Below are positions 46,913 through 52,582 of a stretch of DNA of 52,582 nt, in pieces. The DNA is from Terriglobales bacterium. GTDB lineage: Bacteria; Acidobacteriota; Terriglobia; Bryobacterales; Bryobacteraceae. Position 1 is the first letter of the stretch. Each line of letters begins with the position of its first letter. The DNA lies in assembly GCA_027485675.1 (NCBI GenBank), contig JAIXQP010000012.1:1-52582 (forward strand), read 5' to 3'. The position numbers were made by a program, and so were the translations under genes. The notes below the pieces were generated by a model, which worked only from the letters and a program-made list of their open reading frames with translations, was not told the DNA's origin and searched no databases.

Positions 46913-49900
46913 ATGTCACTTCGGCTCGTCCTCCTCGTCCTGACCTCACTCTGCCTGTTGCACGCCCAACCAAGTCAGGTTGGCCAATGGACGACGCTGC
47001 TGAATTGGCCCTTCATTCCGGTCAGTGTGGCCCACCTCGCCGACGGCCGGCTCGTCGCTTGGTCCTCCACCCGGCCGACTACCTTTCCCGCAGGGGAAAC
47101 CTTTAGCTATGCGGCCGTGTACAACCCCACCACCGGGCAAATCACGGCCCTGAATAACACCGCCCATGACATGTTTTGCGCCGGACTGGCCACAACGGGA
47201 GACGGCCGCATCATCGCCTCCGGCGGCGGCGCGGATGTTCGCACCACCTCGGCCTTCCCCATCACTTCCCGGCAACCGCAATCCTGGTCGCGCCATGCCG
47301 ACATGGTGGCCCGCCGCTGGTACAACTCCTCCGTCACCTTGCCGAGCGGCAATATCCTGACCATGTGGGGCCGATCGGCTGGAACGCTGACGGAACTGTT
47401 TAATCAGAACACCAATACCTGGAGCGCCCTTTCGGGCATCTCCTTACTCAGCTCCGCCGAGCCGAACGACGGGGTGGATGACGACAATCAGTGGTTCCCG
47501 CATCTCCATCTAATGCCCAACGGAAGAATCCTGATGGCCGGCCCACTGCGGACCATGCACTGGCTCGACTACACGGGCGTGGGGAGCACGCAAGCCCTTG
47601 GCAACCGGCCCGTCGATGGCGACCGCCACCGCAAACTGGGCGCTTCCGTGCAGTATCTCCCCGGTAGAATTCTCTTTACCGGCGGACGGGACGACCGGTA
47701 TTCACCCCGAGTCTGGAACTCGGCCATCACCATCGATACCACCAGCGGCAACCCGGTGGTCGCGCCGACCGCCAATATGCAATTCGCCCGCGCTTTCCAC
47801 AATCTGGTCGTTTTGCCGAACGGCGAGGTGCTGGCTGTCGGTGGAAACACGAGCGGGACGAAGTTCAGTGACGCCGGAGGCGTCACGGTGCCGGAAATCT
47901 GGAACCCAAACACGGGCCAGTGGCGTTCCATGCAGCAGGCGGCGGTTCCGCGAGGCTACCACCTCGTGGCGATCCTATTGCGGGACGGCCGAGTGATGTT
48001 CGGTGGCGGTGGCCTGTGCGGTTGTGGAGCGGACCACATGGACTCGCAGATCTTTTCGCCGCCCTACCTGTTCAATGCCGATGGCACGGCGGCCACGCGG
48101 CCGGTCATCGATCTCGCGGCCGCCGACCTCCGGCCGGGTCAAACGTTCGGCTTGAAGGGTTCGGACGGCATTGCCGGCTTCCGTCTCATCCGGCTGCAGG
48201 CGACCACCCATGGCATCAACTCTGACCAGCGCTACATCCCTGTGCCGCACACGCGGGTCTCGGCCGGGAACTACGATCTCACGCTGGACTCGAATCAAAA
48301 CGTACTGCCCCCGGGCATGTACTGGCTCTTTGCGGTTACCGCGAGCGGCACTCCTTCCATCGGGTACCCCGTACAAATCCACACCCCGACGACCTGGCCG
48401 GGCGGCGTGGCGGGTGAAACCAATCTCGCCAAGGGCAAACCGGCCTCTCAGTCCAGTACGGAGCTTTCCGCCGCCGCCTCCCGCGCGGTCGACGAAAACA
48501 CGAACGGCGATTTCCAACAGAATTCGGTGAGCGCTACGGCCATCCAGGCCCAACCGTTCTGGCAGGTGGATCTTGGCGCCTCCGCCTTCCTCACCTCTGT
48601 TCGTCTCTGGAATCGTACCGATTGCTGTGGAAATCAGCTCAGCAACTTCCATGTCTTCGTATCCGATCAGCCGATCAACGGCACGACCGTGGCCCAGGCG
48701 CAAGCGCAGGCCGGAGTCCTGGACATCGCGCATCCGGGCACTGCTTCCGTCACCACAACTCTACCCGTGAACCGCACGGGCCGTTACGTGCGCATCCAAT
48801 TGGAAGCCACGGCAAGCCTGCGGCTGGCCGAAGTAGAGGTCTTTGGTTCCGTCGTCACCAACTTCCCCCCCGAGGTTTCTCTGGTCTCGCCCGCCAATGG
48901 TTCCGCTTTCACCGGCCCGCTTTCGCTCAGCCTTTCGGCCACTGCCTTTGACCCGGAAAACAGCCTGGCCCGCGTGGAATTCTTTAACGGCGCCACCAAA
49001 CTCGGCGAAGATCTCTCCTCTCCCTACTCGTTTGCCTGGAACAACGCCCCTCTCGGCACCCATACCTTAACCGCCCGCGCCGTCGATACGGCGGGGCTTT
49101 CCCGCACCTCCACTCCCGTCACCATCACCATCAATGCGCCTCCGGTGGTGAACAATCCCCCCACCGTCTCGTTCACCGCACCGGTAAACGGGGCTACCTT
49201 CGCCGCCCCCGCCGGCGTTGCCTTCTCCGTAAACGCCGCGGATCCAAACGGTAACCTCGCCCGGGTGGAGTTTTACAACGGCGCCACGAAAGTCGCCGAA
49301 AGGACCAGTGCACCGTTTACTTTCAGCGTCAGCGACCTGGGCGCGGGCACCTATAGCTTCCGCGCGCGCGCCATCGACGCCGCCGGTCTGTTTGCGGACG
49401 CCACGCTCACCGTCCGCGTACTCACCCGCCAACTGCAGTCTCTCCGCAATGTGCCCGTTCCCGAACCGTCCCAACTGGCGAGCTTCGTCAAGAACCGCTC
49501 CGCCGCGGTTGCCCTCGGCAAGGCGTTCTTCTGGGACACCCAGCTCTCGAGCGACGGCGCCATCTCCTGCGCCTCCTGCCACTTCCACGCCGGTTCCGAC
49601 GTTCGCATCAAGAATCAGATGAATCCCGGCACCTTTCGCACCGGCTCGCCGGCCATGACGTTCGACACCTCCCGCACCGGGGCGCCCCACGGACCCAACT
49701 ACACGCTAAAGCGGGGAGACTTCCCGCTGCATGTCCTGTCGAACCCGGCCGATCCGAACTCCACGGTGCTCTACGAGTCGAAGGACGTAGTTGGCTCGCA
49801 TGGAGTGATGCTCCGCCAGTTTTCGGCCGCCGGCATCCCCCCCGCGGAAGATGCCTGCACCAGTGCTGGCGATCCGGTCTTCGGCGCCTTCCGCCGCTCG

Positions 49901-52582
49901 TCAGGCAGGAACTCGCCACCCACGATCAACGCCGTCTTCAACCTGCGGAACTTCTGGGACGGACGGGCCAACACGACCTTCAACGGAGTGGATAGCTTCG
50001 GACCGCGGAACACGGCCGCCGTGATCTATCGCGGCAACCCGCCGGCGCCCGTCTCCATTGCGCTGGACAACGCGAGCCTGGCCTCGCAGGCGCTCACGCC
50101 GGGGTTGATGGCGGGCGAGATGTCCTGCAACGGCCGAACCTGGCCGGAGATCGGCCGCAGACTGTCCGGCGCGGTGCCCCTGGCGCGTCAGCGGGTGCTC
50201 ACCACGGATTCGGCCCTCGGGTCGTACGCCGCCTCCTCCGGGCAAGGTTTAAATTTGAACTACGCCCAAATGATCCAGGCCGCGTTTCAGGACGACCTGC
50301 ACATCTCCTCAGCGACAGTCACGGTCAATGGCCGCTCCTACTCCCAACTGCAAGCGAACTTCTCTCTCTTCTTCGGCCTCGCCATTCAGATGTATCAGGC
50401 GACCCTCGTCTCCGATCAGGCCCCTATCGACAACTATTTCGCCCCGTACCCCTCGACGGATGTCGCCAACTCGACGGCGCTGACGCCTTCGGCCGTGACC
50501 GGGATGAACGTATTCAATGGGAAAGGTCGCTGTGTCACCTGCCACCACGGTCCGCAGTTGACCAATGCCGCCACGCCCGCCCGCGAGGCAGCCGCTATCG
50601 GTGCGCTGGTCTCTTTCATGTTCAACAAGAGCGGAGACCCTGCGGCTTATGATCTTGGCTACTACAACATCGGGGTACGGCCCACGAGTGAGGATCTTGG
50701 CGTCGGCGGCATCGATCCCTTTGGGAACCCAATTTCGCTGACCCGTCAAGTCAAGTCGGGCAACCGTAGGGACAACTTCACCACGGATCCCTGCACGTTT
50801 GAGGTGAACCCCTGCGTACCCCTGACGGCCAGCAGCCGCGATGCGGTCGACGGTGCCTTCAAGACGCCGACGCTTCGGAACATCGCGTTAACCGGGCCCT
50901 ATTTCCACAATGGCTCCGCGGCTACGCTCGAAGAGGTCATCGAATTCTATGACCGCGGCGGCAACGCGAGAGGAACCTCCACGACCGACACCTCCGGTTT
51001 CGGCGTAAATCCGTCCAATCTGCATACCGATATCCGTCCGTTAGGCTTGGCCGAGTTTGAGAAGACGGCCCTGGTTGCCTTCCTGAAGACCGCGCTTACC
51101 GATGACCGGGTGCTCTTTGAGCGGGCGCCCTTCGATCATCCCTCCCTCCCCTTGGTGAATGGCCAAAGCGGCGCCGAGACAGACTTCGTCGTTGTTCCCG
51201 CCGTTGGCAGCGGTGGCCGCACCCAGCCTTTGCCATCTTTTGAAGAGATTCTCACGGCCGGCGATCTGGGGTTCAGCCCTGGTCCGAGCATTGTCTTAAC
51301 CGCTCCCACCACTCTGCTCGCGGCTCCCGCCAGCGTGGCGTTGTCGGCCACCACCGCCGGCACGGTTACGCAGGTCGAGTTCTACAACGGCGCCACCCTC
51401 CTGTTCACCGACACTACCGCGCCCTACGCCTACACCTGGCCCAACGTCCCCGCCGGCTCCTACACGATTACCGCCCGAGCCATTGGCACCGACGGCCTAA
51501 CGGCTACCTCCGCGCCCGCTACGGTCACCGTCGGCTCCGCGCCTACCGTCACCCTGACGGCACCCACCGGAGTCCTCGCCGCCCCGGCCACCGTCTCCCT
51601 CTCCGCCGCCACCACGGGCAACCTGACACAAGTCGAGTTCTACAACGGAGCCACGCTCCTCTTCACAGACACCTCCGCGCCGTACGCCTACACCTGGCCC
51701 AACGTCCCCACCGGCTCGTACACCATCACCGCCCGAGCCATCGCCGCGGACGGCCTCTCCACCACCTCTGCCCCCGCTACGGTTACGGTCGGCTCCGCGC
51801 CTACCGTCACCCTGACCGCGCCCACCGCGGTCCTCGCCGCCCCGGCCACCGTCTCCTTGGCCGCCTCGGCGACGGGCAGCCTGACGCAAGTCGAGTTCTA
51901 CAACGGCGCCACCCTCCTGTTCACCGACACCACGGCGCCCTACGCCTACACCTGGCCCAACGTCCCCGCCGGCTCCTACACCATCACCGCTCGGGCCATC
52001 GGCACGGACGGCCTCACAGCCACCTCCGCCCCCGCCACCGTCACCGTTGGCGCCGCGCCTGTCGTCACCCTCACGGCCCCCACCGCGGTCCTCGCCGCCC
52101 CGGCGACGGTCTCCTTATCGGCCTCTGCGACGGGCAGCCTGACCCAAGTCGAGTTCTACAACGACGACACGCTCCTGTTCGCGGACACGACGGCTCCCTA
52201 CGCCTTCACCTGGAACAACGTCGCCGCCGGCTCCTACACCATCACGGCTAGAGCCATCGGCACGGACGGCCTCACGGCCACCTCCGCCCCCGCGACGGTC
52301 ACGGTCGGCTCCGCGCCTACCGTAGCCCTCACAGCACCCACTGGAGTCCTCGCCGCCCCGGCCACTGTCTCCCTCTCCGCCGCCACCACCGGCGCCCTCA
52401 CTCAAGTCGAGTTCTACAACGGAGCCACCCTCCTCTTCACCGACACCACAGCCCCGTACGCCTACACCTGGCCCAACGTCCCCGCCGGCTCCTACACCAT
52501 CACCGCGAGAGCGATCGGCACGGACGGCCTCAACGCCACCTCCGCCCCCGCCACCGTCACCGTCGGCTCCGCGCCCACCGTC
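46913..52582 (+). CDS. galactose/glyoxal-oxidase-like copper radical oxidase fused to discoidin, Ig and diheme cytochrome c peroxidase domains (3' end outside window)
   Basis: At least 1,890 codons with no stop before the window edge. A signal peptide (MSLRLVLLVLTSLCLLHAQ) is followed by a galactose-oxidase-like propeller (~20-490). Its copper-site residues are all present: C89 (HDMFCAG) and Y137 (ARRWYNSS) for the Cys-Tyr cofactor, axial/equatorial Y349-H350 (RGYH) and H433 (TTHGINSDQR), plus GGGGLCG...DHMDSQIF. The stacking Trp of galactose oxidase appears to be Ser. A discoidin/F5-8C domain follows (~503-645), then two Ig modules (~652-836), then a MauG/CCP domain (~843-1430). The latter has heme motifs C886-A-S-C889-H890 and C1207-V-T-C1210-H1211. 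Tandem Ig repeats start at ~1457. The oxidase would convert alcohols or aldehydes and release H2O2; the peroxidase part could reduce it. Extracellular. Confidence 0.9.
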   Translation, partial: MSLRLVLLVLTSLCLLHAQPSQVGQWTTLLNWPFIPVSVAHLADGRLVAWSSTRPTTFPAGETFSYAAVYNPTTGQITALNNTAHDMFCAGLATTGDGRIIASGGGADVRTTSAFPITSRQPQSWSRHADMVARRWYNSSVTLPSGNILTMWGRSAGTLTELFNQNTNTWSALSGISLLSSAEPNDGVDDDNQWFPHLHLMPNGRILMAGPLRTMHWLDYTGVGSTQALGNRPVDGDRHRKLGASVQYLPGRILFTGGRDDRYSPRVWNSAITIDTTSGNPVVAPTANMQFARAFHNLVVLPNGEVLAVGGNTSGTKFSDAGGVTVPEIWNPNTGQWRSMQQAAVPRGYHLVAILLRDGRVMFGGGGLCGCGADHMDSQIFSPPYLFNADGTAATRPVIDLAAADLRPGQTFGLKGSDGIAGFRLIRLQATTHGINSDQRYIPVPHTRVSAGNYDLTLDSNQNVLPPGMYWLFAVTASGTPSIGYPVQIHTPTTWPGGVAGETNLAKGKPASQSSTELSAAASRAVDENTNGDFQQNSVSATAIQAQPFWQVDLGASAFLTSVRLWNRTDCCGNQLSNFHVFVSDQPINGTTVAQAQAQAGVLDIAHPGTASVTTTLPVNRTGRYVRIQLEATASLRLAEVEVFGSVVTNFPPEVSLVSPANGSAFTGPLSLSLSATAFDPENSLARVEFFNGATKLGEDLSSPYSFAWNNAPLGTHTLTARAVDTAGLSRTSTPVTITINAPPVVNNPPTVSFTAPVNGATFAAPAGVAFSVNAADPNGNLARVEFYNGATKVAERTSAPFTFSVSDLGAGTYSFRARAIDAAGLFADATLTVRVLTRQLQSLRNVPVPEPSQLASFVKNRSAAVALGKAFFWDTQLSSDGAISCASCHFHAGSDVRIKNQMNPGTFRTGSPAMTFDTSRTGAPHGPNYTLKRGDFPLHVLSNPADPNSTVLYESKDVVGSHGVMLRQFSAAGIPPAEDACTSAGDPVFGAFRRSSGRNSPPTINAVFNLRNFWDGRANTTFNGVDSFGPRNTAAVIYRGNPPAPVSIALDNASLASQALTPGLMAGEMSCNGRTWPEIGRRLSGAVPLARQRVLTTDSALGSYAASSGQGLNLNYAQMIQAAFQDDLHISSATVTVNGRSYSQLQANFSLFFGLAIQMYQATLVSDQAPIDNYFAPYPSTDVANSTALTPSAVTGMNVFNGKGRCVTCHHGPQLTNAATPAREAAAIGALVSFMFNKSGDPAAYDLGYYNIGVRPTSEDLGVGGIDPFGNPISLTRQVKSGNRRDNFTTDPCTFEVNPCVPLTASSRDAVDGAFKTPTLRNIALTGPYFHNGSAATLEEVIEFYDRGGNARGTSTTDTSGFGVNPSNLHTDIRPLGLAEFEKTALVAFLKTALTDDRVLFERAPFDHPSLPLVNGQSGAETDFVVVPAVGSGGRTQPLPSFEEILTAGDLGFSPGPSIVLTAPTTLLAAPASVALSATTAGTVTQVEFYNGATLLFTDTTAPYAYTWPNVPAGSYTITARAIGTDGLTATSAPATVTVGSAPTVTLTAPTGVLAAPATVSLSAATTGNLTQVEFYNGATLLFTDTSAPYAYTWPNVPTGSYTITARAIAADGLSTTSAPATVTVGSAPTVTLTAPTAVLAAPATVSLAASATGSLTQVEFYNGATLLFTDTTAPYAYTWPNVPAGSYTITARAIGTDGLTATSAPATVTVGAAPVVTLTAPTAVLAAPATVSLSASATGSLTQVEFYNDDTLLFADTTAPYAFTWNNVAAGSYTITARAIGTDGLTATSAPATVTVGSAPTVALTAPTGVLAAPATVSLSAATTGALTQVEFYNGATLLFTDTTAPYAYTWPNVPAGSYTITARAIGTDGLNATSAPATVTVGSAPTV
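51281..52582 (+). repeat. 258-bp tandem repeats encoding 86-residue Ig-like modules
   Basis: Five units begin at 51281, 51539, 51797, 52055 and 52313, and a sixth starts at 52571 and is cut by the edge. The period was checked at the VEFYN codons (51371, 51629, 51887, 52145, 52403), each exactly 258 bp apart. Units are highly alike at the DNA level; unit 4 is the most divergent around the VEFYND turn. Each encodes a bacterial Ig-like (Big_7-type) beta-sandwich with V-E-F-Y-N and ITARAI motifs. Confidence 0.95.

Follow-up and report, generated by a model that had tools for sequence, protein, structure and literature searches.

A fusion of a copper radical oxidase domain with a MauG-like diheme domain in a Terriglobales bacterium, and related associations in other bacteria

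Glyoxal oxidase, a copper radical oxidase (CRO), drops to an inactive non-radical state from which peroxidase systems reactivate it, according to PMC10928124, and what keeps CROs in their active radical state in nature has been answered only for some fungi. In the Perox-AlcOx pair of Colletotrichum and Magnaporthe, as described in PMC9770985, a secreted CRO of the AA5 type and a secreted heme peroxidase are encoded head to head, the pairing is conserved, and the peroxidase activates the CRO in a dose-dependent manner, with an electron paramagnetic resonance change that fits a one-electron oxidation. Among bacterial diheme enzymes, PMC6405878 gives Met-His ligation for bacterial cytochrome c peroxidases (bCCPs) and a Tyr-His six-coordinate heme for MauG and BthA, both of which form a bis-Fe(IV) state with H2O2. 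AA5 fusions as such are known, because PMC11267884 cites a fusion of AA5 oxidase and CE3 domains in Burkholderia pseudomallei. The stretch of DNA analysed here (the window: 52,582 nucleotides, the entire contig C38, JAIXQP010000012.1, of the Terriglobales assembly GCA_027485675.1, from a bacterium related to the Bryobacteraceae of the Acidobacteriota) contains a gene that joins a CRO domain and a long diheme domain of the CCP_MauG superfamily in one frame. Like the fungal pair, it combines a CRO with a heme domain related to peroxidases; unlike that pair, which consists of two eukaryotic proteins and whose peroxidase is a monoheme class II enzyme unrelated to the diheme domain, it is a single polypeptide, for which activation is proposed here. 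No description of a fusion or association of a CRO with a diheme enzyme was found in searches of open-access papers, in agreement with an earlier note on this DNA whose author knew of no such fusion.

The frame runs uninterrupted from an ATG to the last base of the window, as the earlier note had claimed, and since the window is the entire contig, the C-terminus of the 1890-aa protein is missing. A hydrophobic leader is followed by the CRO domain, a discoidin domain, immunoglobulin-like (Ig) domains, the diheme domain and more Ig repeats that are cut by the contig end (Table 1). The protein is probably secreted, to judge from its N-terminus. Big_7 matches seven stretches of it (Pfam, 1.6e-95), and the near-identical repeats at the 3' end probably caused the assembly to stop, as in several relatives. 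Pfam matches were found for all three of the galactose-oxidase, F5_F8_type_C and CCP_MauG domains expected from the earlier note, and no frameshift lies between residues 500 and 850. An assembly chimera was rejected, since independent assemblies show the same continuous frame and architecture. A plasmid-borne fusion was also rejected: each of the 97 plasmid records with a match falls short of 80% coverage of the query.

To judge from its profile matches and aligned residues, the N-terminal domain is an AA5-type CRO with a kelch propeller and a C-terminal E-set. Glyoxal_oxid_N (residues 64-208, 9e-13) and GO-like_E_set (residues 396-489, 8.9e-18) both score above the Pfam cut-off, residues 13-489 match galactose oxidase 9g8h at 4.4e-89 in a sequence search of the PDB, and all five cofactor and copper residues (the Cys-Tyr pair, the axial Tyr and the two His ligands) are present by alignment, exactly as numbered in the earlier note. 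The predicted fold and these five residues are common to the galactose/glyoxal oxidases of AA5, the bacterial GlxA included. Classical galactose oxidases also carry the GGSW motif of the stacking Trp (which we take to be W290 of galactose oxidase), whereas the aligned stretch of the window is MWGRSAG, and the match to the GlxA model of NCBIfam (NF052501) is weak, with 120.1 bits far below the cut-off of 800. GGSW was seen in five CROs of the survey described below (loci L169, L195, L196, L243 and L244) and is absent from the window and all fused CROs. The five residues are complete in 25 of 25 fused CROs, against 45 of 52 others.

The second catalytic domain matches CCP_MauG (PF03150, residues 864-1176) at 6.4e-20, with 72.7 bits against a cut-off of 25.6, and RoxA-like_Cyt-c at residues 1316-1346 (8.2e-5), with 22.5 bits under the Pfam cut-off of 26.7. 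In the PDB, the heme part matches a di-heme peroxidase (1iqc, 2e-18), a di-heme enzyme (6e1c, 1.1e-17) and MauG (about 4e-9), and among NCBIfam models it falls far below the cut-offs of MauG (TIGR03791, 88 against 443.85 bits) and MbnH (TIGR04039, 113 against 362.85 bits) and scores 11 against 900 bits for RoxC. The two CxxCH motifs of the earlier note were confirmed, beginning at C886 and C1207, 321 residues apart in a domain of about 600 aa. In alignment A1, which holds 36 of the 67 available long heme domains (66 relatives and the window), both motifs, Glu1069, His1332 and Tyr1346 are invariant, and Trp1015 is nearly so. A profile alignment places Tyr1346 at the Met of the Nitrosomonas peroxidase 1iqc and at the Tyr of the MbnH-type 6e1c. 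His1409 (of PFDHP), nearly invariant in A1, lies nearer the C-terminus, but Tyr1346 fits the axial position better by alignment. Because Tyr1346 replaces the axial Met, the domain as aligned is MauG-like and not a classical bCCP, and the label "CCP" of the earlier note is not supported if it is taken to mean a classical cytochrome c peroxidase that reduces H2O2. With MauG, MbnH and BthA the heme domain of the window shares the two CxxCH motifs, WDGRA, the Glu and, as aligned, the Tyr at the presumed axial position, and it differs from them in its length and the spacing of its heme motifs, its fusion to a CRO and the lack of an adjoining mau operon or MbnP gene. The long heme family to which it belongs consists mostly of stand-alone single-domain proteins of 580-830 aa, annotated at best as "cytochrome-c peroxidase"; such proteins, for example those of Zoogloea (L048), Prosthecobacter (L057) and Cyanosarcina (L064), show 40-83% identity to the window's heme domain over A1.

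Table 1. Features of the fusion gene in the window and of three related loci
Feature	Location	Strand	Basis or remark
Whole open frame	46913..52582	+	1890 aa, 3'-open; hydrophobic N-terminus MSLRLVLLVLTSLCLLHAQ, signal-peptide-like (by eye)
CRO domain (galactose/glyoxal oxidase type, kelch propeller and GO-like_E_set), residues 19-490	46967..48382	+	Pfam, PDB 9g8h
C89	47177-47179	+	alignment
Y137	47321-47323	+	alignment
Y349-H350	47957-47962	+	alignment
H433	48209-48211	+	alignment
F5/8 type C (discoidin) domain, residues 524-628	48482..48796	+	Pfam F5_F8_type_C_2, 4.4e-15
Big_7 Ig linker, about residues 653-838	48869..49426	+	Pfam, best stretch 653-721; bounds of the second Ig domain drawn by the analyst
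Long diheme CCP_MauG-superfamily domain, about residues 846-1429	49448..51199	+	Pfam, PDB, alignment A1
First heme motif CASCH, residues 886-890	49568..49582	+	sequence
Trp1015 of NFWDGRA, inter-heme Trp position of bCCP/MauG	49955..49957	+	alignment
Glu1069, at the Glu position in the "EM" motif of bCCPs	50117..50119	+	alignment
Second heme motif CVTCH, residues 1207-1211	50531..50545	+	sequence
Tyr1346, presumed axial ligand of the second heme	50948..50950	+	alignment
Near-identical Big_7 Ig domains arrayed at the C-terminal side, truncated where the contig ends	51305..52582 (start approximate)	+	Pfam, frame
MbnP and CCP_MauG on one polypeptide, beside a CRO gene	L164:11598-13418	-	likewise L182-L187
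Long diheme domain ending a 1770-aa frame with PKD/REJ	L214:4379-9688	-	profile matches
Long diheme domain ending a 1617-aa frame with TIG	L215:5386-10236	-	profile matches

The earlier note had named absence of the fusion from closely related genomes as a ground for refutation. In a kin set of 61 genomes, 11 of the 19 that belong to the same genus carry it (G000, which is the window genome, G001, G004, G005, G006, G007, G010, G011, G013, G014 and G017); of the other 8, G012 has a broken CRO fragment only and seven (G002, G003, G008, G009, G015, G016 and G018) gave no CRO match at 1e-20. Six of the 11 (G000, G005, G006, G011, G014 and G017) keep both domains complete and uninterrupted in a single frame. 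In G001 the frame breaks within the heme domain, in G013 there is an in-frame TAG near its end, and G007 has a truncated start and stops; the fusion runs off the contig in G004 and G010. Elsewhere in the family, L047 (G1543:C5, another genus) has the CRO, Ig and heme domains followed by C-terminal ricin-type lectin domains, and in G026 fragments of every part lie on a single small contig, spread over the two strands and interrupted by stops. Both catalytic domains are under purifying selection with similar constraint. Against the nearest relative, L011, dN/dS is 0.055 for the CRO, 0.047 for the discoidin domain, 0.124 for the Ig domains and 0.058 for the heme domain, and the order (CRO equal to heme, both lower than Ig) is repeated for L012 and L013; it is broken by L047 (CRO 0.286, Ig 0.253, heme 0.252). 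In all of these comparisons dS is near or past saturation, and it is undefined in several cells for L014 and L015.

CRO domains were searched for in overlapping sets of genomes, each phylum set being centred on a named locus: 297 of the window's own phylum (17 with a match), 13 chosen genomes (5), 257 of its own order (29), and the phyla of Prosthecobacter (288 genomes, 8 with a match), Nannocystis (188, 6), Sphaerotilus (398, 5) and a Planctomycetaceae genome (199, 5). The surroundings (up to about 10 kb per side, less at contig ends) were read for all matches but seven (G1546, G1634, G021, G1618, G1469 and G1449:C728, out of 32 match rows in one search, and G842:C656, out of 7 in another) with a diheme profile built from 98 of our own seed sequences, including members from L138, L148, L151 and L057. 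A search with the heme domain found a CRO in the same frame in 8 of 80 fetched loci (L040-L047). Fourteen further CROs, from Acidobacteriota and the phyla of the Prosthecobacter, Nannocystis and Sphaerotilus genomes, share a reading frame with a short diheme module (L138, L164, L165, L182-L190, L194 and L248), so a one-off fusion was ruled out; no CRO-diheme fusion was found in the planctomycete set. Like the window, L138, L164, L182-L190, L194 and L248 hold a CRO and a diheme CCP_MauG/RoxA-like part in one frame, together with Ig/PKD and propeller or carbohydrate-binding modules. The two CxxCH motifs of the short modules are about 125-131 residues apart, and unlike the long domain they usually have a second, MauG-type gene beside them: a separate CCP_MauG gene adjoins 11 of the 14 fusions (not L138, L165 or L248), mostly overlapping or at most 300 bases away and once divergent (L190). 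Of two loci cut by contig ends, L191 has such a gene and L192 does not. The axial position is Tyr in all 14 neighbouring CCP_MauG genes, as in the window. A diheme peroxidase-type gene was present in the fetched stretch of 3 of 50 unfused CROs (L148, L151 and L249). Thus, the suggestion of the earlier note that the pairing is meaningful gained support from its retention in the genus, the similar constraint on both domains and the recurrence of CRO-diheme associations in other lineages.

In a tree of 56 heme domains the window type falls within the long family (31 sequences, support 98/99), and the short modules form a clade of their own (12 sequences, 100/100); CROs have therefore been joined to two different diheme families. 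In the CRO tree of 77 sequences, 24 of the 25 fused CROs lie in a 28-member clade with two contig-end-cut sequences and two unfused ones (L241 and L242, a sister pair of the window type, 98/93); the support of this clade, 94/91, is just under the mark of 95/80, and the fused CRO of L248 is placed outside it. Left out of the CRO trees were L019, L153, L174, L199 and L211, of which too little aligned; L208 and L175, which the CRO profile did not match; the broken pieces of G026 and G012 (L216/L022/L038 and L220) and second copies of the same locus. The notion that the whole clade is fused held on a tree of 64 sequences (24 of 26, the other two cut at contig ends) and was broken by L241 and L242, and the notion that diheme fusion is confined to the clade was broken by L248. 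A single ancestral fusion inherited by the window is not favoured, as its heme domain belongs to another family than the short modules. This pattern suggests two or more separate joinings of CROs of this clade to diheme enzymes, involving different modules, and loss and regain of the diheme partner may be one explanation for L241 and L242.

Our preferred reading, held tentatively and with less than even confidence, is that the protein is a tethered pair of a CRO and a MauG-type peroxidase, in which H2O2 made by the CRO lets the heme domain oxidise or reoxidise the CRO to its radical state. The CRO domain would oxidise an alcohol or aldehyde and reduce O2 to H2O2; the diheme domain would react with this H2O2 to reach a high-valent state and would then take single electrons from a partner in reach, most likely the CRO itself, a choice that would best explain the recurrent fusion of CROs to diheme enzymes or the proximity of their genes. 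Removal of one electron from the inactive form, Cu(II) or Cu(I), would restore the active Cu(II)-tyrosyl radical, and the fusion would be a self-activating oxidase that consumes part of its own peroxide, with the discoidin and Ig domains as spacers and substrate anchors. Here we infer secretion, chemistry, substrate, inter-domain electron transfer and activation alike, and the fungal activation scheme would be carried over to the bacterial fusion by analogy; so applied, it would explain why CROs and Tyr-type diheme enzymes are found together time and again, whether fused or adjacent. The broader proposal, that the self-activating CRO also belongs to a wider, repeatedly assembled bacterial system for controlled extracellular oxidation (as a long fusion, as a short-module fusion with a neighbouring MauG/MbnH gene, or as neighbouring genes alone), is possible but more doubtful. 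The fusion, together with relatives that have the partner as a neighbouring gene, makes the question of how the radical state is kept directly testable in one molecule. It may also offer a natural design for oxidases that need no added peroxidase, and it points to the CRO as a possible partner of some members of the large, uncharacterised CCP_MauG superfamily.

Several observations weigh against the activation scheme. Besides the 8 same-genus genomes that lack the fusion, the close CROs L241 (48% identity) and L242 (44%), both from the same family, stand alone, and the approximately 20 kb fetched around each contain no gene for a diheme peroxidase; the scheme fails to explain these stand-alone enzymes, and the diheme partner is thus not obligatory. 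In L047 the inter-heme Trp is replaced by Val; BthA is functional with Ser at this position (PMC6405878). The spacer varies, L047 having no discoidin match, and this variation favours a loose tether over a fixed interface. All 13 short fused modules inspected have an axial His and no WDGRA, and because of this they may be electron-transfer modules and not peroxidases. Finally, the long heme family forms the C-terminus of a 2381-aa frame in one Verrucomicrobiales metagenome assembly (L056:4751-11893, plus strand) that also contains Spondin_N and Ig domains and a multicopper oxidase, which has four HxH motifs and matches bilirubin oxidase 2xll at 8.7e-20. Multicopper oxidases are not expected to release H2O2, so this protein suits an electron-transfer role better than peroxide supply, and the activation scheme leaves it unexplained.

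A plausible though unlikely alternative is that the CRO supplies H2O2 to the MauG-type domain, which then oxidises an outside substrate such as a polymer, an aromatic compound or a lipid, much as fungal glyoxal oxidase may serve ligninolytic peroxidases. The discoidin and Ig domains, and the ricin-type lectin domains of L047, suit binding to a surface or polymer; relatives in the superfamily oxygenate external substrates, rubber in the case of RoxA and fatty acids in that of PA2077/PA2078, and carry the same PYFHNGS motif (PMC4496055); and glyoxal oxidase is proposed to fuel peroxidases (PMC10928124). However, the table of PMC4496055 gives a C-terminal His as the axial ligand of RoxA and PA2077, whereas that of the window is presumably Tyr1346, though the conserved His1409, which lies nearer the C-terminus, may be an alternative.

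It is rather unlikely that the heme domain serves detoxification or respiration by reducing CRO-made H2O2 to water with electrons from a periplasmic donor, the main idea of the earlier note. Its superfamily membership, the catalytic Glu position and both CxxCH motifs fit such a role, and BthA, although a Tyr-His enzyme, can turn over H2O2 when electrons are supplied from outside (PMC6405878), but by alignment the domain has not kept the high-potential Met-His heme that marks classical bCCPs, a giant secreted protein would have to find its donor outside the cell, and a fusion is unnecessary for scavenging alone.

Less probable again is loose domain shuffling, in which large extracellular proteins of these bacteria accumulate Ig modules and enzymes, and the two catalytic domains would only happen to lie on one carrier. 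The long heme family does occur with other partners, in L056 and in the PKD/REJ and TIG proteins of L214 and L215, whose N-terminal 730-760 aa (approximately) gave no PDB match by sequence. Mere sharing of a carrier sits poorly with the clustering of the fusion on the CRO tree (none of 500 shuffles was as low), with the MauG-type genes that adjoin most short-module fusions and with the intact cofactor residues of every fused CRO.

Maturation or copper handling, in which the diheme enzyme would modify the CRO or deliver copper to it as MbnH modifies MbnP, is the least likely of the alternatives: an MbnP-CCP_MauG fusion adjoins the CRO in 7 of 7 loci of the Prosthecobacter phylum (Verrucomicrobiota) with an adjacent gene (L164 and L182-L187), and NCBIfam names MbnP a copper-binding family, but the window lacks an MbnP domain, as do the adjacent genes at L188, L189, L190, L191 and L194, the only MbnP of the window genome is on another contig (C50), and stand-alone CROs occur without diheme or MbnP-type genes. 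That single MbnP gene (G000:C50:57390-58052, minus strand) lies about 1.3 kb from a CCP_MauG-type match on the same strand (C50:55963-56100). The second idea of the earlier note was that the MauG-like part helps build the Cys-Tyr cofactor; it seems unlikely to be required for this, because the fetched flanks of L241, L242 and most of the unfused CROs examined contain no diheme gene. Galactose oxidase forms its own thioether with Cu and O2.

The neighbouring genes in the window encode a TPR protein, an M1 peptidase, a DUF6702 protein and a beta-lactamase-fold hydrolase; they were considered as partners and rejected, having no evident link to the fusion. Two groups of CRO genes stood out elsewhere in the survey. 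A Cyanosarcina genome has three consecutive CRO genes with no diheme gene nearby (L166:5317-11861, minus strand), and one genome of the planctomycete set (G1296) has seven CRO-type match places (L204-L210), with Leu, Leu or Thr instead of the axial Tyr in 3 of the 6 CRO matches that were aligned.

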